Position numbers and translations under genes: made by a program
The notes under the pieces: model-generated
Told to the model about the DNA's origin: nothing
Databases searched by the model: none
Seen by the model: the letters and a program-made list of their open reading frames with translations, nothing else
Shown: positions 5,056 to 22,681 of the stretch, piece after piece
Layout of the letters: each line of letters opens with the position of its first letter
Position numbering within the stretch: position 1 is the stretch's first letter
From: a virus
Length of the DNA stretch: 22,681 nt
IMG/VR virus record: IMGVR_UViG_3300006071_000104
Location: 1 to 22,681 of that record
Direction: 5' to 3' (one strand)

Positions 5056-5571
5056 TTAAAAGGATAAAGTATTGAAACTGGTTTTCAGTGTAACATTGCT
5101 ACCAGTGTTGGACACATTGGCATAAATCCTTACACCGTGACCGACCATAGTATAACCAACGCTAATTCCGCAGTTGCCGTTAACTGTTTGGTTTTGATCG
5201 TCAGCCGAAACAACACCGTTACCATTATTTAGAATAGTGTATGTTCCTGCAGTTAATGCAGAGCCATTGGTTGCTGCCCAGTTCATAATGATAGATGCAA
5301 CATTACTGCTGAATGTGCCGCCTAATACGGAAACATTAGTGCTGTTATAAGTGATAGTTTGAGCTTGAGTTTCTCCGCCCATATACAAAATGTCGTGCTC
5401 AGTTAAAATTCGTGTGTTACCAACCTGCGGTGCACCTTCTGCTAATGTACCATTACCGATGTGTAGTTCTTGAGTGTCAACACTCCATCCCAATTCGGCG
5501 CTGGCTAACTGTGGTAGATCTTCCGATAATCCTCTGCGTGCTTTAACTTGACTTATTTGTACAATTGACAT
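5056..5571 (-). CDS. Small tail-fibre-like protein with Mtd_N-type N-terminus
   Basis: A 171-residue protein. Residues 1-45 (RRGLSEDLPQLASAELGWS, then DTQELHIGNG) match the N-terminal module found on many phage fibres and on the major tropism determinant: a K/R-R-G start, L-P-x-L, E-x-G-x-x-x-D-T, then L-x-I-G-N-G. The remainder is Gly/Ser/Thr/Asn-rich beta sequence of the receptor-binding or virion-decoration type. It is short for a complete fibre. It sits between an exonuclease and an unknown gene, so it is an isolated structural gene inside a replication/metabolism block. An 8-bp inverted repeat ends exactly at its start codon and may affect translation. Confidence 0.7.
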   Translation of the reverse strand: MSIVQISQVKARRGLSEDLPQLASAELGWSVDTQELHIGNGTLAEGAPQVGNTRILTEHDILYMGGETQAQTITYNSTNVSVLGGTFSSNVASIIMNWAATNGSALTAGTYTILNNGNGVVSADDQNQTVNGNCGISVGYTMVGHGVRIYANVSNTGSNVTLKTSFNTLSF

Positions 5572-5597: not shown

Positions 5598-6308
5598 TTA
5601 GTTTTTAAGATAGTACATCTCGACTCGCTTGAGCCACTCTTGGGACCAGAACTCAAATTCTTCGCCTTCGATTATGAATTCTTGATACACTGGTGTATCA
5701 AACACACCTGGAGCAAGTTGCGCAGGTTGTACACACATTAGGATAACGCCCATATTGATTTCAGTATTGTGCATATGATTATGTGCCATAGCATATGCAG
5801 CTAGCTGAATAAAATAATCGTCAATCCACTCGCGTTTTTTGGGCTTATTTGTTTGTTTGAAGTCTAAAATTGAGGGTTTTCCTTGCCATAAACCCACACA
5901 ATCTGTAGTACCAGCATATAGCCCACTGTAGTATAAAGGAACCTCTACACCCCAGAATTCTGTAACATTTACTAGCCCTTGTCGTATAACACTATCAGCC
6001 ATACTATGACTCTGTCGGCTATAAGGATTGGTACCTGGCTGATCAAATAAATCGTCTTTGATATAATTTTCCAGCCACTTGTGCATACGTGTTCCGCGGC
6101 CAGCAGCTTCAGTGGTAATTTCTTGCGCTTTGGCTTCACCTACACGTTTTTTCCAGTTCCATAAAGCCTGTTTCTTTTCTTCAGATTTAGTAGCATCGAG
6201 TATGGTTGTAACAGAAGGTACTTTGCTGCCGTCAGGGGTACAGTAGTGACGTTTACCTTCAATGGTAGTTCTGCTCATTGGTGAGTAATTGAATTTAGAT
6301 AGTAACAT
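5598..6308 (-). CDS. PD-(D/E)XK exonuclease, MGME1/RecB-like phage family
   Basis: A 236-residue nuclease. Motifs in order: an N-terminal module FNYSPMSR...PDGSKVPSVTTIL, then RGTRMH with H76, VEVPLYY with E122, D136 (GTTDCVG), D149-F-K151 (the D-x-K metal-binding core) and Q168-L-A-A-Y. This is the RecB-type exonuclease arrangement found in T4-like phages and in the mitochondrial exonuclease MGME1. The expected role is single-strand exonuclease work in recombination or end processing. The three cysteines visible are scattered and do not form the Cas4/AddB Fe-S cage. I kept the first ATG because the F-x-Y module before residue 12 is part of the family pattern. It follows erpA after 19 nt. Confidence 0.88.
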   Translation of the reverse strand: MLLSKFNYSPMSRTTIEGKRHYCTPDGSKVPSVTTILDATKSEEKKQALWNWKKRVGEAKAQEITTEAAGRGTRMHKWLENYIKDDLFDQPGTNPYSRQSHSMADSVIRQGLVNVTEFWGVEVPLYYSGLYAGTTDCVGLWQGKPSILDFKQTNKPKKREWIDDYFIQLAAYAMAHNHMHNTEINMGVILMCVQPAQLAPGVFDTPVYQEFIIEGEEFEFWSQEWLKRVEMYYLKN

Positions 6309-6327: not shown

Positions 6328-6657
6328 TTATACACTAAAGCTGCTGCCGCAACCACAAGTGCTGGTAGCATTAGGATTGGTTATAACAAAACTACTGCCC
6401 ATTAAATCTTCTTTGTAATTTATAGTAGCGCCTTCTAGATATTGCATACTGATCGCATCTATTAGCAATGTAATAGATTCTTTTTGAATAACAAAATCAT
6501 CGTCATTGGCTACTTCATCAAAAGTAAATCCGTACTGGAATCCGCTGCATCCGCCACCTTGAACAAAAGTTCTAAGTTTAAGATTTGGATTACCTTCTTC
6601 TGCAATTAAATCGGCAATTTTTGCAATTGCACTATCAGTTATCGTAAGTTGATCCAT
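6328..6657 (-). CDS. erpA: ErpA-type A-type Fe-S cluster carrier
   Basis: A 109-residue A-type carrier. The three cluster ligands are present: C37 in [11 protein letters not shown], and C101 and C103 in STCGCGSSF at the extreme C-terminus. The blocks [21 protein letters not shown] and [15 protein letters not shown] are those I remember from ErpA of Beta/Gammaproteobacteria rather than generic IscA or SufA, so the ErpA call is firm. ErpA receives Fe-S clusters from the IscU scaffold and delivers them to apo-enzymes. Its start overlaps the iscU end by 23 nt. No cysteine desulfurase is nearby. Confidence 0.93.
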
Positions 6658-7030
6658 GTTTTTTCCTATAATCTGCTATTGCGGCTTTTATAGCATCTTC
6701 TGCCAGAATTGAACAATGAATTTTAACAGGAGGCAAAGCAAGTTCTGAAGCGATTTCGCTATTTTTAATATTGCCGGCTTGATCTAATGTTTTCCCTTTG
6801 ACCCATTCCGAGACCAAACTAGAACTGGCAATCGCACTACCGCATCCGTAGGCCTTGAATCGAGCATCGCTAATAATACCGTTTTTGTCTACTTTAATTT
6901 GTAGTTTAAGAACATCGCCGCAGGCCGGTGCTCCCACCATACCTGTGCCTACATCTTCATCGTCCTTGGCAAAGCTACCCACATTGCGTGGGTTCTCGTA
7001 ATGATCAATGACTTTCTCAGAGTAGGCCAT
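6635..7030 (-). CDS. iscU: IscU Fe-S cluster assembly scaffold
   Basis: A 131-residue IscU. All functional residues sit at E. coli positions: C37, D39, C63, H105 and C106, and the LPPVK motif (99-103) recognised by the chaperone HscA. The start [19 protein letters not shown] is the canonical N-terminus, so I chose ATG at 7030 over a longer in-frame extension to 7066 that adds a basic, non-homologous leader. The start overlaps the stop of the cysteine-rich gene by one base (TAATG). It accepts sulfur from a cysteine desulfurase to build [2Fe-2S] clusters. The retained LPPVK and catalytic residues suggest a working protein that uses host IscS, HscA and HscB. Confidence 0.96.
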
Positions 7031-7194
7031 TAATTGTATCCTTGACCTTCGACGCAGGCTTCGCATTCACATTCGGTACAGTAATCGCAGTTTTGGCAAC
7101 TGTGCCCGCAATGCTGTTTACAACTACATTTACAATTGTAAGTGTATCGTTTGTAATTTTGAAATTCATATGTGTCGTTTGTATCGTCGTTCAT
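7030..7194 (-). CDS. Tiny cysteine-rich protein inside the Fe-S cassette
   Basis: A 54-residue acidic/polar protein with ten cysteines between residues 21 and 47 (positions 21, 23, 25, 29, 33, 36, 39, 42, 44, 47) and two histidines (28, 31), a dense CxC/CxxC array. I chose ATG at 7194 because it begins one base after the iscA stop. A longer frame to 7314 would overlap iscA by over 100 nt and has no support. The stop overlaps the iscU start by one base. I recognise no family: the pattern recalls metallothioneins or small zinc/iron-binding knuckles, but cysteine spacing alone cannot decide. With iscA and iscU either side, metal, persulfide or cluster handling is the natural hypothesis. There is no signal peptide. 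Confidence 0.72.
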   Translation of the reverse strand: MNDDTNDTYEFQNYKRYTYNCKCSCKQHCGHSCQNCDYCTECECEACVEGQGYN

Positions 7195-7195
7195 A

Positions 7196-7519
7196 TTATA
7201 TCCTAAAACTTTCTCCGCATCCGCAACGGTCTCGCTCATTGGGATTTGAGAATTCGAATCCTTCATTAAGTCCGTTTTTAACATAGTCCACTGTGGATCC
7301 TTTGATGTAAACACTATCCTTGGGGTCTACTAAGATAAAAAATTCAGGATATGTGATACGTATTTCTGGACCAGAGTTGTTGTTCTCAGTAACGTATTCT
7401 AACACATAAGCAAGTCCAGAGCAACCGGTGGTTCGGACTCCGATTCGTATACCTACAAAGTTTTTTTTATTTAATAAATTTCGAAGTTTGGTGACTGCTG
7501 ACTCTGTAAGAGTTATCAC
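7196..7519 (-). CDS. iscA: IscA-type A-type Fe-S carrier
   Basis: A 107-residue IscA with ligands C33 (VRTTGCSGLAYVLE), C99 and C101 (CGCGESF). The GVRTxGCSGxAYVLE and GLNEGFxFxNPN blocks are IscA-specific and differ from ErpA next door, so the phage carries two functionally distinct A-type carriers. The frame starts with GTG (7517-7519), and ITLTESA follows as in host IscA. The upstream gene stops 4 nt before it, and a purine-rich AAGAAG lies about 12 nt upstream. The middle (residues 46-70) diverges more from the host form than IscU and ErpA do. It could deliver or store iron/clusters for IscU-dependent assembly. Confidence 0.92.
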   Translation of the reverse strand: MITLTESAVTKLRNLLNKKNFVGIRIGVRTTGCSGLAYVLEYVTENNNSGPEIRITYPEFFILVDPKDSVYIKGSTVDYVKNGLNEGFEFSNPNERDRCGCGESFRI

Positions 7520-7523
7520 GATG

Positions 7524-7928
7524 TTACTGTCTTCTTTGCATTGCTGATTTAGCCATTCCGGAAACTACTGCTTCAGGATTGTCTACTGCACTGGTGTACT
7601 CTTCGGGATTGGTAACCGACGGAATACTACTGGTATTGAACTGTACCATATCAGTGGTTATTTTTTTAATTAAATTTTTAACAGCTGGTTCGTCTTGATT
7701 GGCAGAAATCAAATCATCGTAAGTAAAGCCAGATAAACCGCTGTTATTGATATAACGCAAAACCAAAGCAGTCGGTACTTCGGGTTTGAGATTGTGTGTT
7801 TTAATTTGGCTCTGTAATAAACTCAATGCTGTTAATATATTTGGATCTGAATCTGCATCCGTGTCAAAGTCCTGATTTGTGGGATCAGCAAGACTGTTGT
7901 CTTCAAATGCAAATTCACTTAAACGCAT
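7524..7928 (-). CDS. Unknown acidic phage protein
   Basis: A 134-residue protein starting MRLSEFAFEDN, with an Asp-rich segment (residues 20-29), a helical middle (ILTALSLLQSQIKTH) and a region TYDDLISANQDEPAVKNLIKKI. The N-terminus MRLSEF resembles short openings of several conserved T4-like phage proteins from aquatic hosts, but I cannot name a family. The start overlaps the stop of the upstream gene by one base (TAATG) and the stop lies 4 nt before iscA, so it links the upstream gene block to the Fe-S cassette. No catalytic motif or membrane segment is visible. Function unknown. Confidence 0.75.
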   Translation of the reverse strand: MRLSEFAFEDNSLADPTNQDFDTDADSDPNILTALSLLQSQIKTHNLKPEVPTALVLRYINNSGLSGFTYDDLISANQDEPAVKNLIKKITTDMVQFNTSSIPSVTNPEEYTSAVDNPEAVVSGMAKSAMQRRQ

Positions 7929-8605
7929 TAACGACGCTCTCTGCCTAAATCTTCTGCGCCACCTGCGGCTGCATCAGTTGCATCGAATCCGTCTGCTTGA
8001 TCTAAGTCATTTTCTTCAGGAGCAGGTAATGCACCAGCTGCACCTTCGGGCGGCATACCGCCACCCATATCCATTGATTGACCAACATCTTCGCCAGCCA
8101 ATTGACGTGAACCTTGATCTAACGCATCACGAGCAGTATTCAAACTATCCATTAGACCTTGTAGTGCACTGGTAACAGTATTCTTGAAACTGTCAGCCTG
8201 TGGTACACCAACTTGATCGCGGATAGTATCCAGCAATGGTGGTAATTGTTCGTTAAGCATTTTGCTAGCGTCAGTGATCATATCCTGAACACTATCAACC
8301 ATGTCTTTGGCAGCCAATACTGCTTCGGCGGTTTCTAGCTCGCCTTCCATCAATGCATAGTTTTGCTTCAAGTAAGATTTAAGTCCTTCTTGAACCATTA
8401 ACATTTCCATATATTTAGGATTGCGTTCAGCACTATGAGCTCCATAGCTTTGACGAATTTTATTTAATTGTTCACTGATAGCAGTGCTCAATCTTTTTGC
8501 TTTGCTAAGTGACATATTATCATAGTCAAGGGAAAATCCGAATCGACTCTCCATAACACGATTATATTTTTTAGCAGTTACTGGGGTTAGCTCTTTAAGG
8601 TTCAT
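7928..8605 (-). CDS. Unknown helical phage protein, possible scaffold or virion part
   Basis: A 225-residue protein from ATG 8605 (MNLKELTPVTAKK). A further in-frame ATG at 8620 would add five residues. I prefer 8605 because it makes a 4-nt ATGA overlap with the upstream stop. Residues 1-150 are strongly helical (RFGFSLDYDNMSLSKAKRLS; NPKYMEMLMVQEGLKSYL; MVDSVQDMITDASKMLNEQ). Residues 170-225 are low-complexity and rich in Gly, Pro, Asp, Glu and Ala. This architecture resembles conserved proteins of T4-like aquatic phages annotated only as hypothetical. A coiled helical protein with an acidic tail would fit a scaffold or structural part, but I have no motif to prove it. Confidence 0.75.
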   Translation of the reverse strand: MNLKELTPVTAKKYNRVMESRFGFSLDYDNMSLSKAKRLSTAISEQLNKIRQSYGAHSAERNPKYMEMLMVQEGLKSYLKQNYALMEGELETAEAVLAAKDMVDSVQDMITDASKMLNEQLPPLLDTIRDQVGVPQADSFKNTVTSALQGLMDSLNTARDALDQGSRQLAGEDVGQSMDMGGGMPPEGAAGALPAPEENDLDQADGFDATDAAAGGAEDLGRERR

Positions 8606-9126
8606 AATATCTGATTCCAAAGTTTTATATATTTAGCAGACTTTAATCTTTTTTCCAATTCTTCTCTAGCAGTTGCTAGGCGAGACTTGGAGTCTGACAG
8701 TTTAATTAGCCATAAATCACGCTGAAATATGTCTGTTTTTTTAGATTTTTTATATATTTTTTTAGTATACAGTTCGTACTCGTCGGATAGTTTTGCCACT
8801 GTTTGGTCTTTTAATAAAATATCGTCTGCAGCTTTATAGTACTTAAATTTTGTAAACACCGCATAAAAAACTGCGGCCTGTTGACTATAAAAAATATGTA
8901 TAACTTTATCGTCTTTGGTAACACGCCATTTGTGTTTGTCTAAATGGCATATTTCATAATCTGCTAATATCCAGTTGTATTTGTCCATTTGAACAAATAT
9001 AGGATACACACTGGCACGACGCATTATTGCTAATTCATCTTCTGCCCAAGCATCGATTTTGCTCATAGCAAAATCTACTAAGCGTTCACCCAGTTCTTTT
9101 TTTGTATACGATTTTGCCGTTTTCAT
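8602..9126 (-). CDS. Unknown phage protein with aromatic N-half and helical C-half
   Basis: A 174-residue protein. Residues 35-95 (YPIFVQMDKYNWILADYEI, then KVIHIFYSQQAAVFYAVF) are aromatic-rich and look like a small alpha/beta domain. Residues 100-174 form a basic helical or coiled-coil tail (KLSDEYELYTKKIYKKSKK ... REELEKRLKSAKYIKLW). Proteins with this DDILxKDxxVxxL plus RLxxAREELEK pattern recur in T4-like aquatic phages as far as I remember, without a known role. The start overlaps the upstream gene by 41 nt. An internal ATG at 9066 would remove the overlap but shows no better ribosome site, so the start is uncertain. The stop forms ATGA with the next start. Confidence 0.72.
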   Translation of the reverse strand: MKTAKSYTKKELGERLVDFAMSKIDAWAEDELAIMRRASVYPIFVQMDKYNWILADYEICHLDKHKWRVTKDDKVIHIFYSQQAAVFYAVFTKFKYYKAADDILLKDQTVAKLSDEYELYTKKIYKKSKKTDIFQRDLWLIKLSDSKSRLATAREELEKRLKSAKYIKLWNQIL

Positions 9127-9665: not shown

Positions 9666-10067
9666 TCAGTGTACATCAAAATATATGTTTTTTAAGGTGC
9701 CTGTCCCAAAAAATATAGGCAACATAAAGCGTGCAGTTTCTTCCAGTCCCAATATAATAGGAACTTCGGTAAAATCTTTTTCTAATTCTTCTATGTTATA
9801 AACATCAGTTCTGCCGCCTTGAAAACTAAAATACCACATTTTATGTTCACCTTGATAAAATTCACCAAATAAAGGATTATAATCGTCTAAATTTAATACA
9901 ATAGACTCAACTGGTTTTATAATTTCAGGTTGTGTTTTAAGGCCCAATACTTGTAATACTGTTTCCCAGTTACGTTGTTGATCTCTATCAGTTCCTGTAC
10001 CCCGAATTTGATAAGTTGGGGTTATATCCACTAGCGTAATACATCTGAATATAGGGGTGTTTTCCAT
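9666..10067 (-). CDS. Unknown phage protein (FRCITLVDITPT family-like)
   Basis: A 133-residue protein beginning MENTPIFRCITLVDITPTY, with RDQQRNWETVLQVLGLKTQP at residues 29-48 and an aromatic segment MWYFSFQGG. I moved the start from 10097 to ATG 10067 because the upstream codons lie inside a terminator hairpin (10092-10110). The R-N-W-E-T-V-x-Q-x-x-G-L-x-T-Q-P pattern is one I associate with a small conserved protein of T4-like aquatic phages, role unknown. A perfect TATAAATA ends five bases before the ATG, which would give an almost leaderless message. Confidence 0.7.
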   Translation of the reverse strand: MENTPIFRCITLVDITPTYQIRGTGTDRDQQRNWETVLQVLGLKTQPEIIKPVESIVLNLDDYNPLFGEFYQGEHKMWYFSFQGGRTDVYNIEELEKDFTEVPIILGLEETARFMLPIFFGTGTLKNIYFDVH

Positions 10068-10072
10068 CAAGT

Positions 10073-10080
10073 ATTTATAG
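10073..10080 (-). promoter_or_regulatory. T4-type late promoter, perfect TATAAATA
   Basis: A perfect match to the T4 late consensus on the minus strand, directly after the terminator of the upstream gene and directly before the ATG at 10067. The expected transcription start falls at or within the start codon, so either the mRNA is leaderless or the real start is elsewhere. Placement between a terminator and the next gene argues for a real promoter. Confidence 0.6.
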
Positions 10081-10081
10081 G

Positions 10082-10110
10082 TCAAAAAGAAAGGCAACTA
10101 AAAGTTGCCT
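10082..10110 (-). terminator. Intrinsic terminator after the 10141-10572 gene
   Basis: A perfect 8-bp stem (AGGCAACT / AGTTGCCT, 10092-10110) with a 3-nt loop is followed on the minus strand by TTTCTTTTT. It lies about 30 nt after the stop of the small virion-like gene. Stem, tight loop and U-run together make this the clearest terminator in the window. Confidence 0.85.
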
Positions 10111-10630: not shown

Positions 10631-11899
10631 TTATTTTTTCCAGGCCTGCCCAGCACTAAAATTCTCTTTACTGAACTCAATTCTGTCTACTAGTTTAACT
10701 GCACCGCCGTCGTGCCCGATAGCAACAAACCCTTCGGGTTTTGTAATTTTATAACCTGTATCTGTTTTAATAAAGGTGCCAGCAATGCTTTCAATTTGAC
10801 GTAGTTTGTTGATAACTAAAAGCTTTAGTTCAACAATACGTTTGTACATTGCCAATATTCCTAATAGGGTATTACTGTTGTCAGCAATAAACTGCTCTTT
10901 TTCCTGTATCTTTTTGATACGGTCTTGTGCAGCTTTGCTTTCGGGTCCGCCTTTTAATTTTGCGATTTCAGCTTCTTGCTTGCCTTTGTAGTAGGTAAGA
11001 AACTGTTTCAAAAACTCTGTAGGTTCTCCTACTTGATCAACTCCGCCTCGTACTAAGTTATTGATAAAAGGCTTGATATGTTTGGCAAACTCTGCATTTT
11101 TGAGAATAATGTCAAAATTGGATTTATTAATCTTTTTCAACGTGTTGGCACTTTGAATTAATCCTGCACGTAGTAAACTGTTTTCTTCTGGAGTTAAACT
11201 AGCTATACCTGTATAATCGTGGTAAAAAGCGTCATCAAACCATACATTTTTGCTTTGATTCAGGCCAGCTACACTATAGCCGTATTGTGCAGTCATATTG
11301 GAAATTTCGCTACCTTCGTAACTAGTGTGAAACACAATACCAACTTTTGCACTCATCATACGTCGAGCTAAATCACTGCTCTTGGGTACTGCGTAGGTAA
11401 TAGTATTAGGTTGAAATACAATACATTCTTCGTTGTTGATTGTAGCAGTTTGCAGGTCACCTTCAGTAAACATCAGGTCACCTTTAATAACACCGCTAAT
11501 ACCAAGACTGGGCAAGTACTTCAAACACAATTCTAATTTTCTTGCAAGGTCGGGTTGCTCGCCATACCAGTTTTTAATATCTTTAGTTGACTTGCACAAC
11601 TTGGCTTCACCTTTGGCAAATACACTTTTAGTGCCTACAAAAAATTTACTGTCAGCAGGATCTAATCCACAATGTATAGCAGGAGCACCGTCCCACTTGA
11701 CTGTGACTTGGCTGGGCTCGCCTGTGCCTTCGCTGAGCATTTTGCGCAATGCTTCAATATAGTTTAGTGCTCGTTGTGCACCAAGAAATCCTTCATTGAA
11801 GATTAAATCTTCAAGATGTTCCAAGTGTGTTGCTTTGTCCTCAGCGGATTCCAACAACTGCCATTTGGGTTGTAGATTCTTTATTTCAAATAGTTTCAT
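10631..11899 (-). CDS. Nucleotidyltransferase/ligase-like phage protein (DUF6267-like)
   Basis: A 422-residue protein. K68-W-D-G (VTVKWDGAPA) matches motif I of covalent nucleotidyltransferases (DNA/RNA ligases, capping enzymes), where the lysine takes the nucleotide. Further matches: FFVGTKSVFAK (86-96), IKGDLMF (138-144, motif III-like), E389-G-F-V (motif IV-like) and VK402-LVDR (motif V-like). A helical, lysine-rich insertion of over 200 residues (about 220-370) separates motifs III and IV. This matches, from memory, a large conserved family in T4-like aquatic phages usually left as DUF6267 or hypothetical. It is the last gene of a late-promoter cluster and overlaps the upstream stop as ATGA. 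Ligase or nucleotide-transfer activity is inferred from motifs only. Confidence 0.72.
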   Translation of the reverse strand: MKLFEIKNLQPKWQLLESAEDKATHLEHLEDLIFNEGFLGAQRALNYIEALRKMLSEGTGEPSQVTVKWDGAPAIHCGLDPADSKFFVGTKSVFAKGEAKLCKSTKDIKNWYGEQPDLARKLELCLKYLPSLGISGVIKGDLMFTEGDLQTATINNEECIVFQPNTITYAVPKSSDLARRMMSAKVGIVFHTSYEGSEISNMTAQYGYSVAGLNQSKNVWFDDAFYHDYTGIASLTPEENSLLRAGLIQSANTLKKINKSNFDIILKNAEFAKHIKPFINNLVRGGVDQVGEPTEFLKQFLTYYKGKQEAEIAKLKGGPESKAAQDRIKKIQEKEQFIADNSNTLLGILAMYKRIVELKLLVINKLRQIESIAGTFIKTDTGYKITKPEGFVAIGHDGGAVKLVDRIEFSKENFSAGQAWKK

Positions 11900-12528
11900 T
11901 CTGAGTAACCTTGAGTAAAGTTGGCCTGTTGGTCAAGGAATGTATCCAGGGCCGCGTCAACTTTTCTACGATTCTTGTGATTGATCCATTCGCCCATTCC
12001 GCCAAGTCTGTAAACAGCTCCTTGGAACTTGATCATTATAGGATCTTGATTTACAATCTCTACACCAGGTGCAAGTTTATGTGCGGCTGCTGGTGCCGGT
12101 GGTTCTTGTGCGGCCGCCGGCTCTGCGGGAGTATTTCCTGCTATCTGACTCTTAACTTTATTGGCCAGTGATTTTTTTTGACTATATTCTATATCATCCG
12201 AGCGGTTGCCAGTTTGTGTATCTACTATGGCTTTATAGATATAATTTTTAATGGTATTACCGTCAATGGCAGTTAGTGTTCCTTCATAGGGCGGAGCACT
12301 TGTTCCGTTGTTTAACCAACGACCCAACCATCTATTAAGTTGTTCGCCGTAGACTGCAGGATCTTTCATATCATATCCAGCGGCAGCTAATTTATTATCA
12401 ATCTTGTCCCATTGGTCTATTGCAGACTGTACAACAGGACTGTGCTTTGCTTGAGATTGTTTGACTCCTTTAATTGCACCTTTGATGCCGCCCCACAATC
12501 CTTCATTAACGATTTCATTGACCTTCAT
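11896..12528 (-). CDS. Unknown phage protein with Ala/Pro linker
   Basis: A 210-residue protein with three parts: an N-terminal Gly/Lys-rich amphipathic stretch (MKVNEIVNEGLWGGIKGAIK), a helical domain (residues 30-130, WDKIDNKLAAAGYDMKDP, LNRWLGRWLNNG) and an Ala/Pro/Glu linker (133-150) leading to a small C-terminal domain (VEIVNQDPIMIKFQGAVYRL). It overlaps its upstream neighbour by 14 nt and shares a 4-nt ATGA with the ligase-like gene downstream, so the two may work together. No catalytic motif was recognised. The late promoter ahead of the cluster suggests a late, possibly assembly-related role. Confidence 0.72.
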   Translation of the reverse strand: MKVNEIVNEGLWGGIKGAIKGVKQSQAKHSPVVQSAIDQWDKIDNKLAAAGYDMKDPAVYGEQLNRWLGRWLNNGTSAPPYEGTLTAIDGNTIKNYIYKAIVDTQTGNRSDDIEYSQKKSLANKVKSQIAGNTPAEPAAAQEPPAPAAAHKLAPGVEIVNQDPIMIKFQGAVYRLGGMGEWINHKNRRKVDAALDTFLDQQANFTQGYSE

Positions 12529-12766
12529 TCTTCATCCTTTTAACGCCTCTGTTGAACTTGTCAATATCCTGTGTGCGGATACTATTAAGTAATTTGCGTT
12601 CAAGTTCTTCAGCCTGTTCTTGAGTGTAGTTTTCTCTGATAAATGTCATGAGATTAATAGCTCCCTGAATAACATGGTTGGCACGACTTTCCACAAGATT
12701 TTCTCTATCTTTGTGTAAGCGTAGACTTTCCAGTTCTTCAAAAAGACTGCGTGTTTTTTTCTGCAA
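12515..12766 (-). CDS. Small helical phage protein, TTG start
   Basis: An 83-residue all-helical, charged protein (SLFEELESLRLHKDRENLV; HVIQGAINLMTFIRENY; LLNSIRTQDIDKFNRGVKRM). The initiator is TTG at 12764-12766, supported by a GGAG ribosome site 6 nt upstream and a late promoter element just before that; no in-frame ATG upstream fits. Proteins with the A-I-N-L-x-x-x-I-x-E-x-Y ... K-F-x-R-G pattern occur in T4-like aquatic phages without a known role. First gene of the three-gene late cluster ending in the ligase-like protein. Confidence 0.72.
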   Translation of the reverse strand: MQKKTRSLFEELESLRLHKDRENLVESRANHVIQGAINLMTFIRENYTQEQAEELERKLLNSIRTQDIDKFNRGVKRMKNEGQ

Positions 12767-12787: not shown

Positions 12788-12795
12788 TATTTATT
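12788..12795 (-). promoter_or_regulatory. T4-type late promoter, AATAAATA
   Basis: AATAAATA on the minus strand, overlapping the helicase stop codon at 12791-12793. The predicted start near 12782 leaves a leader of about 16 nt containing GGAG before the TTG start at 12766. That spacing is coherent, and it separates a late transcription unit from the replication genes. Confidence 0.55.
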
Positions 12796-14251
12796 CGGAT
12801 TTGTTTTTTAGGCCTGCTAACATCTGCTTGAGCATAGTACCGTCAGCTTGTGCTCTAGGTGCACCGCCGGGTGCAATATCTAACGGATCACGTATACCTT
12901 CTTTGAGTCTAGGCTTGTCCCAAGGTACAGTTTTAGAATCGCCGCCTTCCACTGTACTTTTTGCTTTGATTTGACTCATTACACTGCCAACTTGGGGTCT
13001 TAAAGAGCCAGGAGTGCCTTGTGCTTCCTCGCCAGGGTCTGTGATACGTAAACTCTCAATATCAAAGTCTAAGTCCACTTTTGTGCCTACCCCACTACTG
13101 CTACGAGTTTTCATCAATTGTATTTGATAACGTCCACGTTCACGCATTGCACGACTTGTAAAAATACCAAACACATTATCAGCAGTATTAATCTTAGAGA
13201 TACCACCCGAAATATGACTATGGTCAAATTCAATTTCTTCAACTGCACTACGATTCAACTGACTAGCAGTGATCATCAATATATTAAATTCTCTGGCTAG
13301 GTTACGCAGTTCTTCTGACACATACTTGTCTTTGACAAACAAATCATTGGGGCTAACTTTGGCACTAACTGGCATAACCAAATCCAAGTAATCCACCATA
13401 ATAAAATCTGTTTTGCGTCCTGTTTGTACTTCTAGTTCTTTCAAATATGCACGAATTTGATTAACATTACTTTGTGCTGGCATATACTTGATACGCAGAT
13501 TGCCGGACTTTTTACCAACCATCTTGAGTTTTAGTTCCAATGTATCTAAGTCTTTGAAAATCTCTCTTGTGCTGATATTGGCCACCATACTGTCCATACG
13601 CATTGCACACAGTTCTTCACTGAGCTCCAGTGTTAAGAATACACCATTAAGTCCTTGTTGTATCCAATTGATAGCAATATTCTGCATAAACAAACTCTTA
13701 CCAGAACCACTTCCGCCTGCAAAGATGTTTAGCTCACCCCTGTTCATACCACCAAACAATCGTTTGTCCATGGTAGGCCAGCCTGTGCTGATTTGTCCGT
13801 TGTTGCTTTTGATCTTTAACAATCTTGCACGGGGATCTTCAAAGTAGTCAGTGCCCATATCTTTTGTAAGGCTAATCTGTACTGCATCTTTGATAATCTT
13901 TTCTACTGGATCATACTCGCCCTTTTCCAACATATCTGCACATTTCAAAATTGCACGTTCAAGTTCTTGTTTCTTAGTAAATCCCTCAAACTCTCCCATA
14001 AACCAATCATAATGACTGTCTGTTAAACTGGGCACTGGTTTCAATTCCACTGATGTTACTGCAAATATTTGTTCTGCAGTTGGCATTGCTTTGTGTGCAT
14101 CCACGTGCTCTTTGATAAACTTTGCAGCTGCTTTTAGACTACGATCAAAGTTTTCTGCATTATAGATATTTTGTACACGCACATAGCTTTCTGCTTTCTG
14201 TAACATCATTTCCAGAAACAAGCGTTGTAAGTCGACTGAATATTCTTTCAT
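12791..14251 (-). CDS. DnaB-family replicative helicase (T4 gp41-like)
   Basis: A 486-residue hexameric 5'-3' replicative helicase. The N-terminal half (1-150) is the helical primase-interacting domain. The RecA-like core holds Walker A G179-GSGSGK185-S, Walker B with D287 (FIMVDYLD), ITASQLNR (DnaB motif 3), and KTRSSSG, which includes the arginine-finger-type basic residues. The last 60 residues (GEEAQGTPGSLRPQ... APGGAPRAQADG) are a flexible Gly/Pro tail. Length and order match T4 gp41. It unwinds the phage fork and stimulates the primase. It is coupled to the upstream primase through a 4-nt ATGA overlap. Confidence 0.95.
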   Translation of the reverse strand: MKEYSVDLQRLFLEMMLQKAESYVRVQNIYNAENFDRSLKAAAKFIKEHVDAHKAMPTAEQIFAVTSVELKPVPSLTDSHYDWFMGEFEGFTKKQELERAILKCADMLEKGEYDPVEKIIKDAVQISLTKDMGTDYFEDPRARLLKIKSNNGQISTGWPTMDKRLFGGMNRGELNIFAGGSGSGKSLFMQNIAINWIQQGLNGVFLTLELSEELCAMRMDSMVANISTREIFKDLDTLELKLKMVGKKSGNLRIKYMPAQSNVNQIRAYLKELEVQTGRKTDFIMVDYLDLVMPVSAKVSPNDLFVKDKYVSEELRNLAREFNILMITASQLNRSAVEEIEFDHSHISGGISKINTADNVFGIFTSRAMRERGRYQIQLMKTRSSSGVGTKVDLDFDIESLRITDPGEEAQGTPGSLRPQVGSVMSQIKAKSTVEGGDSKTVPWDKPRLKEGIRDPLDIAPGGAPRAQADGTMLKQMLAGLKNKSE

Positions 14252-15291
14252 AGTAATTTTTTCTTCTTTAATTCAATTTTTAATCTATTGGTTTCCTTGG
14301 CATCAATTATTGTTTTTAACACAAACAATTTGCCATATCGTTGTACTGCTGCACTAACATCTTTGACATCTGGTTCCCACTCAGGAAAGCTAACACTCCA
14401 TCCATACTCCAATGCATCATTGATTAACTTTGCACCAGCTCGGTCTCTATCAGGCACTACAATGACTTCTCGAGTTAGACTGTCAATAATATCTGCTTGT
14501 ATTTCGTTGCATTCATTGCTTAATATTGCAACTCCATCAACTGCCATTGCATCAAATGGTCCTTCAACTACAATAACAAACTTGGCGTCTGGATATTGGC
14601 GATCTATATTAAACACATAGTTGGGTTCGTACTGACTAAAATATTTGGGCTTAACATAGTCTTCGAAGGTTCTGGCAGTATAGCCAATGACTTGATTATT
14701 CCAAGTAAAAGGAATAATAACACGTTTATTTAAGTTATGTTGTGCCTCAGGTGTCCACATTAGATTGTACTTGATCATATCAATGTGTCGGTCTGCGGCA
14801 TAGATAACTGCTGAATGGTAATCCGCTGGCACATCGTACTCGTCGGTATTTTCTGCACTTAGTGTATAAAAGTTTTCCCACTTTGTAAAATTCATTGCCT
14901 CCGCTGGTAATGATTTTGGTTTGAACTCAACTTCTAGTTTTGCTTCTTCTACAAATGTGTCTGTAGGTGTTACCAAATCTTTAATACGAATAGCATCAAT
15001 AACCAATCGTTTAACTTCGTTTTCGCTTGCACCTAACCAACTCAATAGTTTACGAAACTTATAAGTTAAATGGCGTCCAGGAACATAGCTGGCTTTATAG
15101 TTACAGTTGAAACAGTGATAGCTAATACCACCGCCGGGATTGGTGATCAATCCACCTCTACTACGTGTGTCTGCAGTTTCGCCGTTGTGATGACAACAGG
15201 GCGCATTGAAACTGATCCAACCACTTGTGGGATTTGTTTTTCTTTTGGGAGGTAGTAATAGCGTTACTGCATCGAGAATGGTATTAAACAT
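14248..15291 (-). CDS. DNA primase (T4 gp61-like), zinc-binding plus TOPRIM
   Basis: A 347-residue primase. The zinc-binding domain shows C32-C33-H34-H35 and H59-C60-x-x-C63 (APCCHH; YHCFNCNYKA). The TOPRIM core shows E243 (VVEGPFDAM) and D281-x-D283 (VVPDRDRAG). Length and domain order match T4 gp61 rather than the larger bacterial DnaG, and no helicase is fused. It lays RNA primers on the lagging strand with the helicase downstream. The ATG at 15291 is the only start that keeps the N-terminal zinc module. A sigma70-like promoter ends 7 nt before it, which would give a leaderless mRNA. Confidence 0.94.
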   Translation of the reverse strand: MFNTILDAVTLLLPPKRKTNPTSGWISFNAPCCHHNGETADTRSRGGLITNPGGGISYHCFNCNYKASYVPGRHLTYKFRKLLSWLGASENEVKRLVIDAIRIKDLVTPTDTFVEEAKLEVEFKPKSLPAEAMNFTKWENFYTLSAENTDEYDVPADYHSAVIYAADRHIDMIKYNLMWTPEAQHNLNKRVIIPFTWNNQVIGYTARTFEDYVKPKYFSQYEPNYVFNIDRQYPDAKFVIVVEGPFDAMAVDGVAILSNECNEIQADIIDSLTREVIVVPDRDRAGAKLINDALEYGWSVSFPEWEPDVKDVSAAVQRYGKLFVLKTIIDAKETNRLKIELKKKKLL

Positions 15292-18808: not shown

Positions 18809-18967
18809 TTATATAATTAAATTATCCCCGGACTCAGTTAATATCTGAGTTACACCATCTTCTGTAGTCAAATCATTGTATATAACCACATAGGCATTTA
18901 ATAGGGTAACTGCAATGTTACCTATGTCAATGCCACTACCAATTTTTACACCAGATTCGATTATCAT
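18809..18967 (-). CDS. Small protein coupled to the giant adhesin
   Basis: A 52-residue protein [20 protein letters not shown]... then YVVIYNDLTTEDGVTQILTE. I chose ATG 18967 because it makes a 4-nt ATGA overlap with the adhesin stop. An in-frame ATG at 19033 would overlap the adhesin by 70 nt. It is beta-rich with Gly turns like its neighbours. It could be a small fibre accessory or chaperone-like piece; no family is recognised. Confidence 0.5.
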   Translation of the reverse strand: MIIESGVKIGSGIDIGNIAVTLLNAYVVIYNDLTTEDGVTQILTESGDNLII

Positions 18968-21900
18968 ACCAATCTTTCGATACTGATCATATTGTTGTTG
19001 TAGCCTATACCAACTACCAATGTTATTCTCCAAGCAATAGAATTTGAAGTATCTCTAATTACCCAGGTATCGGTCAGACCAGCACCACTCAAATTAGCAG
19101 AAGCACTTAAATATGCCGGTGTGGTAGTAACACTTAATGGACTAGTACCGCCATCAATGTAGCCGCCGGCTGTGCTACTACCATAAACAGTAAGTGTTCC
19201 TGATACGGTTGATACTTGTAAACTTGCGTTTCCACTAGAAGCCATTCTTACTTTTAGATTGCCTAAAGTAACATCTACACCACGATTAACAAATCCTGAG
19301 GCTTTTGTTATAAGACTAGTACTTGTTCCAGTAACATTCAGGTTGCCACCAACTGACACATTGCCAGTTGTGGTCATTGTGCCAAGCGTGTTAAGGGCAA
19401 AGGCTTGGTTAATCTGTGTGATGGCAGCACGGCTAAAGTAGCCACCACGGTGTTTGGCATTTAGGCCTGACGTACCGCCTGTTACTCTAAACTTGACAGT
19501 TTGATTTGTGCCGGGAGTATAAACAATATCTAAACTGATGTTGTTGACTTCATTGTAGCCGGTGTTGTATGCGGCCGATATCTGTTGGTTGCCGATTACT
19601 GCATTGGTTGTGGCATCAACCAGTTGAACTATCAAATATCCGTTGGCACTGTAACCAGCAAAGCTGAACATGCCCACAATATTGTAGGTCGACCCTGCAG
19701 TCAATGTGAACTGACCGTTTGATGTGCTGTAGGCAATGCCTGAACTGGTTGACAAGGTGTCCCAGATAATATCTGTACCTGTGGCATATACTGTTTGGTC
19801 AGCGGCATTGGTCACATTCACATACTGATTGTTTAAGGTGCCAGTAGCAGTGGCCTGAACTGCTATGGCCGGATTCAGTTGTTCAATTTCAACCACCGCC
19901 CCACCATTGACACCGTTGAAGGTGATGGTATTGTCAATGCTGGTCAATCGATATGTGGTGGCCTGAGTGGGTGTTACATACGCAATGGTTTCGTTGTTAC
20001 TTCCTATATGTCCGGCAGTACTGTCTACTGCTTCTGTAAAGCCACGAGTACCAACATAGGCACTGTCAGTCACACTATACCATTGGAATTGACCCCAGGT
20101 GTTTGACGACACAAATCTTGAGGCAGTAAACTTCAGTTTGTATGTCCAGCCTGGTTGTAGAGTAAATGTTGATGTGGTTGGTTGTGTGATCAATGATCCC
20201 ACAGAATACACACTATTTGAGAAAGGTACAGCACCACCGGCTGTGACTGCTACATCTCCACCAGTGTTAGTAGTCGCAAGCAATCTTGAACCATTTACTA
20301 CCCCATAAGTTGTTGGCTGACCGTTGACGATAATATTACTAACATTCAAATTGCCTGGAATAACAACATTACCGTTACTGGCAACTGTCATTCTTGTTGC
20401 TAATATATTTGCACCTGCACCAGGAACTTTTGTAGCAAAGTTGATGTTGGCACTATAATCACCGTTGTCAATAGCAAAAATTCTTGCTTCTGGTGGGAAT
20501 CCGGCACCACTATAGGTGTACAAATCAATAGCCGAGCCACTGCCAGCACCACCTCCAGTGTTGAATAAGTTCAATGTACTGACTACATTGCCAGCATTTG
20601 AAACAGTAACACTCATTGGAGATGCATAGTAAGCAGTGCCTACTGCGGTACCAACAAACAAACTAGTACCAGTTATAGTTCCGACTACACCCACATTAGT
20701 ACCAAATGTAGCAGAGTTATTAACTGTTAAATTGTTAACAGTAACATTGCCACCATAAGTTGCAGTAGTACCGTATGCATTACCAAAATGTGATCCAGCA
20801 ATATTGCCAGCAGTGATATTCCCTGTACCGCTACCAATACTAACACTCGCATTTGCTGCACCTGCATTAATTGCAGTAGCAACTCCGCCTATATTCAAAG
20901 TAGTTGCAGTGGTATTGAATACCGAAACATTGGTAGTGGCTGCAATAATACTTGTTGTAGTTACATCCTGTCCTGCGGTTAGATGTTGTAGGCCACTTAA
21001 TGTAGCAGTACTTGGATTGTAACGTAGCCCATTGCTCAATCCATTTAGCGAACTTGTTCCAGTATTGGCAAATACCACTGGATAATAATTGTTAACGCTG
21101 GTATTGGCTATGGTGCTAGTAACGGCCGACACATTTGTTATTTGTGTGCCATCACCAATTAAACTTGCACCAGCGTTACCGATAGTAGCAGCATTTACAG
21201 TTGTACCATTTAGTGTACTGGTTAGCGTTAAGCCAGCAAAAGAAGGCGAACCATTTGTTTGTAAATTTTGTGGGCTACTGATAGTTACGGTATTACCGCT
21301 GGCAGTTATTGTAACACCATTTGTACTGGCAAATGCCAATGTTTGATTAATTAAACTAACTGATCCAGTTCCGCTTGTACCAGACATACTCAACGAGCTA
21401 CTGACACTGGCAGTGCCGATATTGGCAACACGGCCATATGGGTCTAACGTAATTACTGGAATACTAGTGGCATTACCTGTAGTGCCTGCTCCAGGACCAG
21501 CAGTAGTTAAACTGATATTTGAACCAGTAATAGTTAAATTACCTGTACCTGATGAAGTCGAAACCACACGATTACCATTATCAGTAATCACATTGCCTGT
21601 AACGCTACCGGTTGTGCTGATTGGAAGATTGAAAGTCCACGCATTGCTGATACTGTTATATAATATACTGGCATTTGCACCGTTGGCAAATATACCTGCA
21701 CCGTTGGCCTGTGTTGTAGTACTAGCGTTTGCAGCCAAAGTAATTACTAAATTACTCAATGTTAAATTGGTGGCATTTACTGTAGTAGTGGTACCACTAA
21801 CCTGTAGATTTCCTAAAACATATAAACTGTTGCCTACAATAGCATTGCCACCTACTGTAGTATTGCCTGACGATTGTATTATAGTAGCAGATAATACATT

Positions 21901-22681
21901 GACATTTGAAATGTTGCCCGATGACCCAGTGGTAGTGATATTACCACCTACATATAACGCTCCGCCAATACCAACTCCACCTACTACTTGCAATGCACCT
22001 GTTGTGGTACTGGTTGCAGGTGTGGTGTTTGTTGTGATAATTTGTTGTGTAGTTGTGCCTGAAAATATTCCAGTAGGTCCTTGTGGGCCTTGTGCCCCAG
22101 TTGAACCCTGTGGTCCTTGTGGTCCTTGTGCCCCAGTTGAACCCTGTGGTCCTTGTGGACCTTGTGTTCCTGCAGAGCCGGCGGTTCCTTGTGGACCTTG
22201 AGGGCCTTGTACTCCCGAAGAGCCTGCAGCTCCTTGTGGTCCTTGCGGTCCTTGTGCCCCAGTTGGTCCTTGTACTCCGGTGGCACCTGTCGGGCCTACT
22301 ATTCTACCAGCATCGTGCCAAGTACTGTCTGCACCCCAAAACCAAACATTACCTGTATTTGAAGTAATATATCCATCGTCTAAATTATTGCTGGTATTTG
22401 GTAAGAATGTATAGTCTGTTACTGTACCCAATAATGTTACACTAACACCTTGTTGTCCTTGTGGACCTTGTGGTCCAGTTTGCCCTTGCGGTCCCTGTGG
22501 TCCTTGTGTGCCAATTGGTCCCTGCGGTCCTTGTATTCCCTGGGGTCCTTGAACACCTGCTCCAGTAGGTCCTTGTGGTCCTTGCGCTCCAGCGCTGCCA
22601 TTACTTCCACTTGGGCCTTGTGGTCCTTGTACACCAGTAGGTCCTTGTGGTCCTTGCGCTCCAGCGCTGCCATTACTTCCA
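18964..22681 (-). CDS. Giant collagen-like adhesin/tail fibre, N-terminus outside window
   Basis: The frame is open from the right edge to 18964, at least 1238 residues. A TTG at 22431 could be read as a start, but Gly-X-Y codons continue in frame upstream without a stop, so the gene begins beyond the window. From the N-terminal side: a Gly-X-Y block (22447-22680), a short domain ([20 protein letters not shown]), a second Gly-X-Y block (22069-22296), a long Gly/Thr/Asn/Val beta-repeat stem, two C1q/TNF-like jelly-roll-looking domains (about 20310-19870 and 19850-19420), and an end with [19 protein letters not shown] typical of phage fibre C-termini. Collagen triplets trimerise into rods; with jelly-roll tips this is a host-contact protein. 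No endosialidase-type peptidase was recognised. Confidence 0.88.
22069..22296 (-). repeat. Collagen-like Gly-X-Y block with 36-nt direct repeats
   Basis: Seventy-six residues of G-P-Q, G-S-T, G-A-Q and G-P-T triplets. Within it, a stretch of about 35 nt beginning at 22088 recurs at 22124 with a 36-nt period (four triplets). GPQ dominates, with proline in the X position and glutamine in Y, as in bacterial and phage collagens that lack hydroxyproline. Confidence 0.9.
22447..22681 (-). repeat. Collagen-like Gly-X-Y block with 48-bp exact direct repeat
   Basis: The block continues beyond the right edge. An identical 48-bp segment occurs at 22562-22609 and 22634-22681, offset by 72 nt (24 codons, eight triplets), so the period keeps the collagen frame. 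The second copy runs to the window edge and may be longer. One interruption (G-A-G-V, at about 22555) breaks the triplet register. Confidence 0.9.

Follow-up and report, generated by a model that had tools for sequence, protein, structure and literature searches.

We analyzed a stretch of 22,681 nucleotides of viral DNA (IMG/VR record IMGVR_UViG_3300006071_000104, positions 1 to 22,681; hereafter the window), in which an open reading frame (ORF) at 10631-11899 on the minus strand encodes a 422-residue member of DUF6267, a T4-like phage family without an assigned function. We lean toward the explanation that this protein is a late-made, capsid-packaged, protease-trimmed, and injected nucleotidyltransferase of the ligase fold, which would most likely seal RNA early in infection. 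Family membership, motif invariance, a fold match, a tag-like N-terminus, and a late-type promoter element were computed and speak for it, and we infer from them that the window protein may be packaged, cleaved, and injected, and may act as a catalyst on RNA.

The ORF is open throughout and real. Pfam DUF6267 (PF19782) matched residues 24-416 of its product (E 1.3e-105), with 354 bits against a curated cut-off of 27, which places the protein in the family; PHROG 455, labelled as of unknown function, also matched it. The window protein was found at 100% identity in two IMG/VR contigs and at 50-70% in others, and its best relatives in deposited phages (35-42% identity) are those of Kyanoviridae cyanophages, pelagiphage HTVC008M, methylophages (Melnitz), and Stenotrophomonas phage DLP6. 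At E <= 1e-5, 469 records of deposited phages matched DUF6267, and the family was confirmed in at least 587 IMG/VR stretches. NCBIfam gave no match at its cut-off, PADLOC gave none, and no mention of DUF6267 was found in the literature outside subscription journals. The name "cytidyltransferase" was rejected as an identity for DUF6267, as it belongs to a neighboring or fused domain.

Catalytic motifs and predicted fold

The protein and the elements of its putative catalytic core are as follows.
10631..11899, minus strand: DUF6267 protein, candidate ligase-fold covalent nucleotidyltransferase, 422 residues (PF19782, PHROG 455, AlphaFold, VIA-align)
11687..11698, minus strand: motif I, K68-W-D-G71, with K68 the predicted nucleotidylated lysine; K, D, and G invariant
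11627..11629, minus strand: K91, possible basic residue of motif Ia; invariant
11471..11491, minus strand: motif III-like strand around the invariant D141, residues 137-143 (137-145 in the model)
11318..11341, minus strand: motif IIIa-like strand, residues 187-194 (GIVFHTSY), with invariant H191 and T192; strand 186-195 in the model
10799..11191, minus strand: helical insertion between IIIa and IV, residues ~237-367 (~130) in the AlphaFold model; shorter in 298-residue homologues
10724..10735, minus strand: motif IV, E389-G-F-V392; E389 and G390 invariant
10682..10702, minus strand: motif V, residues 400-406 (AVKLVDR), with invariant K402 and R406

Conservation was scored in 246 distinct DUF6267 sequences aligned to the family hidden Markov model, and the counts refer to the sequences covering each position; part of the set was fetched by patterns that include KWDG or HLEHLED, and the sets fetched with other peptides agree. 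K68, D70, G71, K91, and D141 were identical in 234/234 covering sequences, H191 and T192 were invariant in 235, E389, G390, and K402 were identical in 227/227, and R406 was identical in 225/225; position 69 is W, or F or Y in a few homologues. The motifs run in the order I (KWDG), Ia-like (K91), III-like (GD141, within the KGD at residues 139-141), IIIa-like (GIVFHT), IV (EGFV), and V (AVKL), which gives the features of the superfamily: a K-x-D/H-G lysine in motif I, followed in order by an acidic III, an EG in IV, and a lysine in V. The invariance of the catalytic residues holds down to ~30% overall identity among homologues, and, judged from the alignment, the identity of the motif residues is far above chance. 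The original prediction, made from the DNA letters, had proposed the KWDG motif and the III-, IV-, and V-like segments in ligase order, and the residues concerned proved invariant in ~230 homologues. It had also named the findings that would speak against it, namely, a fold lacking a nucleotidyltransferase core or divergence at K68, D70, and K402; the core was predicted, and all three residues are conserved.

AlphaFold models were obtained for the window protein from 63 sequences (mean predicted local distance difference test, pLDDT, 83; predicted template modeling score, pTM, 0.77) and for a short homologue of 298 residues (pLDDT 90, pTM 0.85). The window model places the motifs on strands and leaves residues 1-24 mostly disordered (1-4 and 9-24). 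When VIA-align was run over candidates supplied by Foldseek, 49 of the top 50 rows for the window model were DNA/RNA ligases, led by Naegleria RNA ligase (Z 8.1), TbREL1 (7.5), and T4 Rnl1 (7.3), with Trl1 and Rnl2 close behind, and all 50 of the top 50 rows for the short homologue were ligases (Naegleria RNA ligase best, Z 8.9). In BFVD, many viral RNA ligases were among the best matches outside DUF6267 itself.

The predicted core aligns with the RNA ligases (Naegleria gruberi RNA ligase, T4 Rnl1, T4 Rnl2, TbREL1, and Trl1) over ~170-200 residues at 3.6-5.2 A, and shares with them KxDG, the acidic III (D in DUF6267), the EG of IV, and the lysine of V in the same order. The residues mutated in the PDB titles of the Naegleria enzyme (K170, D172, E227, E312, and K326) follow a similar order, with spacings of 57 from I to III and 14 from IV to V versus 73 and 13 in DUF6267, whose extra length lies between III and IV. 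This gap measures 247 residues in the window protein. The count of more than 200 helical residues in the original prediction was too high, as the gap includes motif IIIa and several strands, and the helical part spans only the ~130 residues given above; in the 298-residue homologues, the gap is 163 residues, with helices at ~177-250 (roughly 75). Unlike the RNA ligases, DUF6267 has this helical insertion and an N-terminal HLEHLED region matched to no known motif, and it shows no significant sequence similarity to them.

Several of these comparisons weigh against a ligase-like enzyme. The K-x-K of motif V (KCK in T4 Rnl2) was not found, KLVDR having K402 and then R406 at the position of the second lysine of Rnl2, and the protein ends 20 residues past K402, which leaves no C-terminal domain like those of known ligases. 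Foldseek against PDB gave no match at E <= 0.001 with either model, VIA-align Z values of 8-9 are middling by the tool's own note, and hhalign against T4 Rnl2, as a single sequence or a nine-member alignment, returned nothing significant (probability 0.3). Searches of PDB sequences by phmmer and hmmsearch found no ligase and mostly coiled-coil chance matches. Because Foldseek alone was not significant and the sequence profiles were blank, it is motifs and fold together, rather than homology statistics, that carry the nucleotidyltransferase assignment. With motif invariance and fold matches pointing the same way, we consider a ligase-type nucleotidyltransferase core in DUF6267 very likely. Separately, a Pfam scan of the 63 members gave one match to RNA_lig_T4_1 at 0.017 among 48 mostly spurious families, which was taken as chance.

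Predicted capsid-targeting N-terminus and operon

Upstream of the catalytic core, the protein and its operon carry the following features (arrows in sequences mark predicted cleavage points).
11849..11899, minus strand: predicted capsid-targeting propeptide, residues 1-17 (MKLFEIKNLQPKWQLLE↓S), with predicted cleavage after E17; E17 at least 90% conserved; N-terminus disordered in the model
11896..12528, minus strand: upstream gene, 210 residues, starting MKVNEIVNE↓G and predicted to be a hypervariable internal protein of the head; overlaps the DUF6267 gene by 4 bases
12502..12528, minus strand: residues 1-9 of the upstream gene product, predicted from its N-terminal sequence to target the capsid
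12515..12766, minus strand: small first gene of the operon, 83 residues, TTG start; similar N-termini in relatives
12788..12795, minus strand: AATAAATA, resembling a late promoter, where the operon starts, with an overlap with the stop codon of the helicase gene; ATAAATA element in relatives

The site LLE17↓S18 agrees with an N-terminal capsid-targeting sequence, a feature that the original prediction had missed. The pattern (I/L)xE(A/G/S) within residues 5-28 was present in 41/70 non-redundant DUF6267 members versus 130/1121 of the remaining genes on those contigs (Fisher 4e-19, an optimistic value as the members are related), and random windows of the same proteins matched at 3%. For example, homologues start with MKFTEYLTE↓A, MQSFKQYLSE↓A, or MKLFEIKN...LLTE↓S; T4 IpIII starts with MKTYQEFIAE↓A, and T4 head precursors hold similar xE↓A/G sites. 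The tags of the T4 internal proteins (IPs) and Alt have been described (PMC7411985, PMC3012670). Like IpI, IpIII, and Alt, tagged DUF6267 members have a short N-terminal peptide with an (I/L)xE↓(A/G/S) site of the gp21 type, of 17 residues in the window protein versus 10 in IpIII. In the one tagged relative scanned with PHROG (L262), we found a head maturation protease (1e-72), a scaffold (1e-89), and a major head protein (2e-156), with xE↓A sites in scaffold and core-like proteins; a second record (L263) has similar ORFs, and the window is too short to show such head genes. Pfam searches for gp23 and gp21 in four records gave no match, and neither did their controls; a search with the T4 gp23 protein found head genes in two other records.

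The gene just upstream shows the same kind of N-terminus. The tag was present in 24/32 non-identical products at this position in the window's own clade, and 414 pairs without downstream similarity share 39% identity in residues 1-10 versus 7% in residues 31-40. This constant tag on unrelated bodies matches what has been reported of T4 internal proteins (PMC3012670). The 210-residue protein itself had no match in deposited phages and a weak match to HopA1 below the cut-off. Thus, as with the T4 internal proteins, cargo genes adjoining DUF6267 share a tag on unrelated bodies, and a head protease is encoded (L262); unlike them, the cargo has a ligase fold and lies beside gp41, and its presence in virions is predicted from genes. 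In several cyanophages (S-SM1, DSL-LC02, Syn19, and S-SZBM1), the tag is instead on an adjacent cytidylyltransferase-like protein, such as SSM1_190, which adjoins the DUF6267 gene of S-SM1, starts with MKKFSAFLNE↓A, and belongs to family T4-GC190. This family was detected in S-SM1 virions (PMC3037559), and a cytidylyltransferase was found in S-CREM2 virions, where its authors did not exclude carry-over (PMC10665884).

The DUF6267 gene sits among replication genes, namely, a gp41-like helicase (12791-14251), a gp61-like primase (14248-15291), and NrdA/NrdB. Late promoters of the T4 type read TATAAATA, and those of cyanophages read NATAAATA. Of 59 loci, 23 have an ATAAATA element after the helicase stop, versus ~0.04 expected per stretch (~tenfold); TATAAATA and CTAAATA counts are at chance within the window alone, and the argument from the promoter is drawn from the relatives only. 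The operon is probably expressed late though it lies among replication genes. The original prediction had placed the gene in a late-promoter cluster rather than with replication genes; the first remark gains support from the relatives, the second is not supported, and a late-type element in a replication-gene locus reconciles the two. Farther along, at 10072-10079 on the minus strand, another TATAAATA is preceded by an inverted repeat (AGGCAAC...GTTGCCT) and a run of T, and an ATG within ORF 9666-10097 lies just 3' of it. This region is plausibly a terminator and the late promoter of the next operon, and the TTG start listed for ORF 9666-10097 is probably too early.

These data bear on whether DUF6267 is packaged at all. 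The two regular expressions of the tag rule were written after the N-termini had been seen, and a repeat with a T4-type rule was likewise post hoc; the tag is missing from most of the marine cyanophage members examined (MPNKHLEH..., MAKNTHLEH...), and no report of DUF6267 itself was found in readable virion proteomes. An ordinary cytoplasmic enzyme of the replication cluster, with coincidental or lineage-specific LxE N-termini and no packaging, would fit the untagged cyanophage members and the place of the gene between gp41 and the nrd genes, but is hard to square with the tag enrichment, the hypervariable neighbor with its constant tag, the virion detection of the same-tag neighbor family, and the late-type element; we give it a rather small chance. 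A degenerate nucleotidyltransferase fold serving as a purely structural part of the prohead core would account for the large helical insertion, the packaging tag, and the middling structural scores, but a dead enzyme would not need catalytic residues invariant in all ~230 distinct covering sequences, and we regard it as very improbable. In the tagged lineages, packaging of DUF6267 in virions is likely. The interpretation of the original prediction is supported in part, for its nucleotidyltransferase core, while the predicted capsid-targeting N-terminus makes delivery as cargo along with the genome likelier than a part in assembly chemistry.

Partner genes and the possible reaction

In the explanation that we favor, an injected RNA-sealing enzyme, the DUF6267 protein would be made late, enter the prohead through its N-terminal capsid-targeting sequence, be trimmed at LLE17↓S18 by the phage's gp21-type protease, and be injected together with the genome. 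After injection, ATP or another nucleoside triphosphate would nucleotidylate K68 with the help of D141, E389, K402, and a metal, and the nucleotide would then pass from K68 to a polynucleotide end; the helical insertion may replace the missing second domain as the part that binds a substrate or partner. The most likely use would be to seal RNA of the host or the phage, such as tRNA that an anticodon nuclease has cut, before phage genes are expressed. We put nucleic-acid sealing as the task of DUF6267 at slightly less than an even chance.

The commonest DUF6267 neighbor is a CTP_transf_like protein with weak similarity to NMNAT, which is fused with DUF6267 in S-PM2 (591 residues), and the PHROG 455 profile mixes both domains. 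The two S-PM2 records, L034 (AJ630128) and L126 (LN828717), differ: one encodes DUF6267 and the cytidylyltransferase in separate frames, and the other joins them in one frame of 591 residues; the record that reads through the fusion is that of a spontaneous deletion mutant. The T4-GC190 "cytidyltransferase" of cyanophages adjoins DUF6267, is fused to it in S-PM2, and in several phages starts with a tag of the same kind, but it has a different fold (CTP_transf_like, HIGH superfamily) and was not found in the window. This partnership is an argument for a nucleotidyltransferase that marks proteins or small molecules (capping- or AMPylation-like) and works with the HIGH-type cytidylyltransferase/NMNAT-like neighbor, e.g., in NAD or nucleotide chemistry after injection, and so is the lack of any known nucleic-acid-binding domain on DUF6267. 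Its motif and fold matches are polynucleotide ligases with few capping enzymes, however, and we consider such a role unlikely.

Other partners resemble enzymes of nucleic-acid repair. A tagged P-loop protein of HTVC008M matched a PHROG polynucleotide kinase (E 8.5e-8), and a tagged HAD protein (L069) matched a polynucleotide kinase family (E 3.6e-5). HAD proteins (WDIDDTL/FDIDDTLF) and P-loop kinase-like proteins are encoded close 3' of DUF6267 in L056, L057, L061, L069, L070, L074, L085, and L101 and in L067, L103, L110, and L118, most with tag-like N-termini. A polynucleotide-kinase-like or HAD-phosphatase-like gene beside DUF6267 recalls heal-and-seal RNA repair (T4 Pnkp with Rnl1; bacterial Pnkp1-Rnl-Hen1), which differs in that the parts of the DUF6267 locus are tagged for packaging and that kinase and phosphatase are separate. 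Each kind of gene occurs in a minority of loci, which counts against the explanation that we favor, and the two were not seen together in one locus. A virion-packaged repair kit of freshwater and marine T4-like phages, with DUF6267 as the ligase-fold sealing enzyme, joined in some relatives by tagged healing proteins that resemble polynucleotide kinases and phosphatases, injected with the genome to mend RNA damaged by host defense before phage expression, is conceivable but doubtful.

The same sealing chemistry could serve DNA. A packaged ligase that seals DNA ends or nicks and so repairs the injected phage genome would be consistent with match lists also rich in DNA ligases, with a KxDG motif that fits either substrate, and with the adjoining helicase, primase, and reductase genes. 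RNA ligases nevertheless lead the structural matches, and no OB-fold or DNA-binding domain follows motif V; the tagged neighbors resemble polynucleotide kinases, which does not separate DNA from RNA. We judge DNA as the substrate improbable.

Other genes of the window and implications

Downstream on the minus strand, genes 7524-7928 and 7928-8620 have relatives with tag-like N-termini (MRSSEFIIEA, MRATEFVFED; MNRIMESRFG). For the second, PHROG gave a virion structural family (E 1e-13), so that more head cargo may follow downstream. Also on this strand, an IscU/NifU-N-like gene (6635-7066; PF01592, E 6.7e-52) is flanked by two small genes (6328-6657 and 7196-7519) with IscA-like C-terminal CxC ends, the latter matching Fe-S_biosyn (E 1.6e-16); these are iron-sulfur cluster assembly genes in a phage, and related genes occur in other contigs of the clade. 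A protein with an Mtd_N domain (E 1e-6) adjoins a PD-(D/E)XK nuclease-like protein (E 9e-5) at 5056-5571 and 5598-6308 (minus strand), and 18964-22431 (minus strand) encodes a tail-fiber-like protein of 1155 residues with collagen repeats.

Myoviruses are known to package NAD/ADP-ribose enzymes and polyvalent effectors in their virions (PMC9503650, PMC5512222), and in non-subscription literature the terms "cyanophage" and "capsid targeting sequence" occurred together only in a T4 head review that mentions cyanophage once (PMC9026906). Injected enzymes are thus a known idea, and the packaging of one with a ligase fold would apparently be a new form of it. DUF6267 is common and its locus is conserved in cyanophages and related phages, yet it has no assigned function. 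Injected proteins of uncultured T4-like phages could be listed simply by applying the N-terminal tag rule. If the explanation that we favor is true, a major protein of marine and freshwater phages would gain a testable role, and phages would inject repair enzymes, not only inhibitors and ADP-ribosyltransferases.
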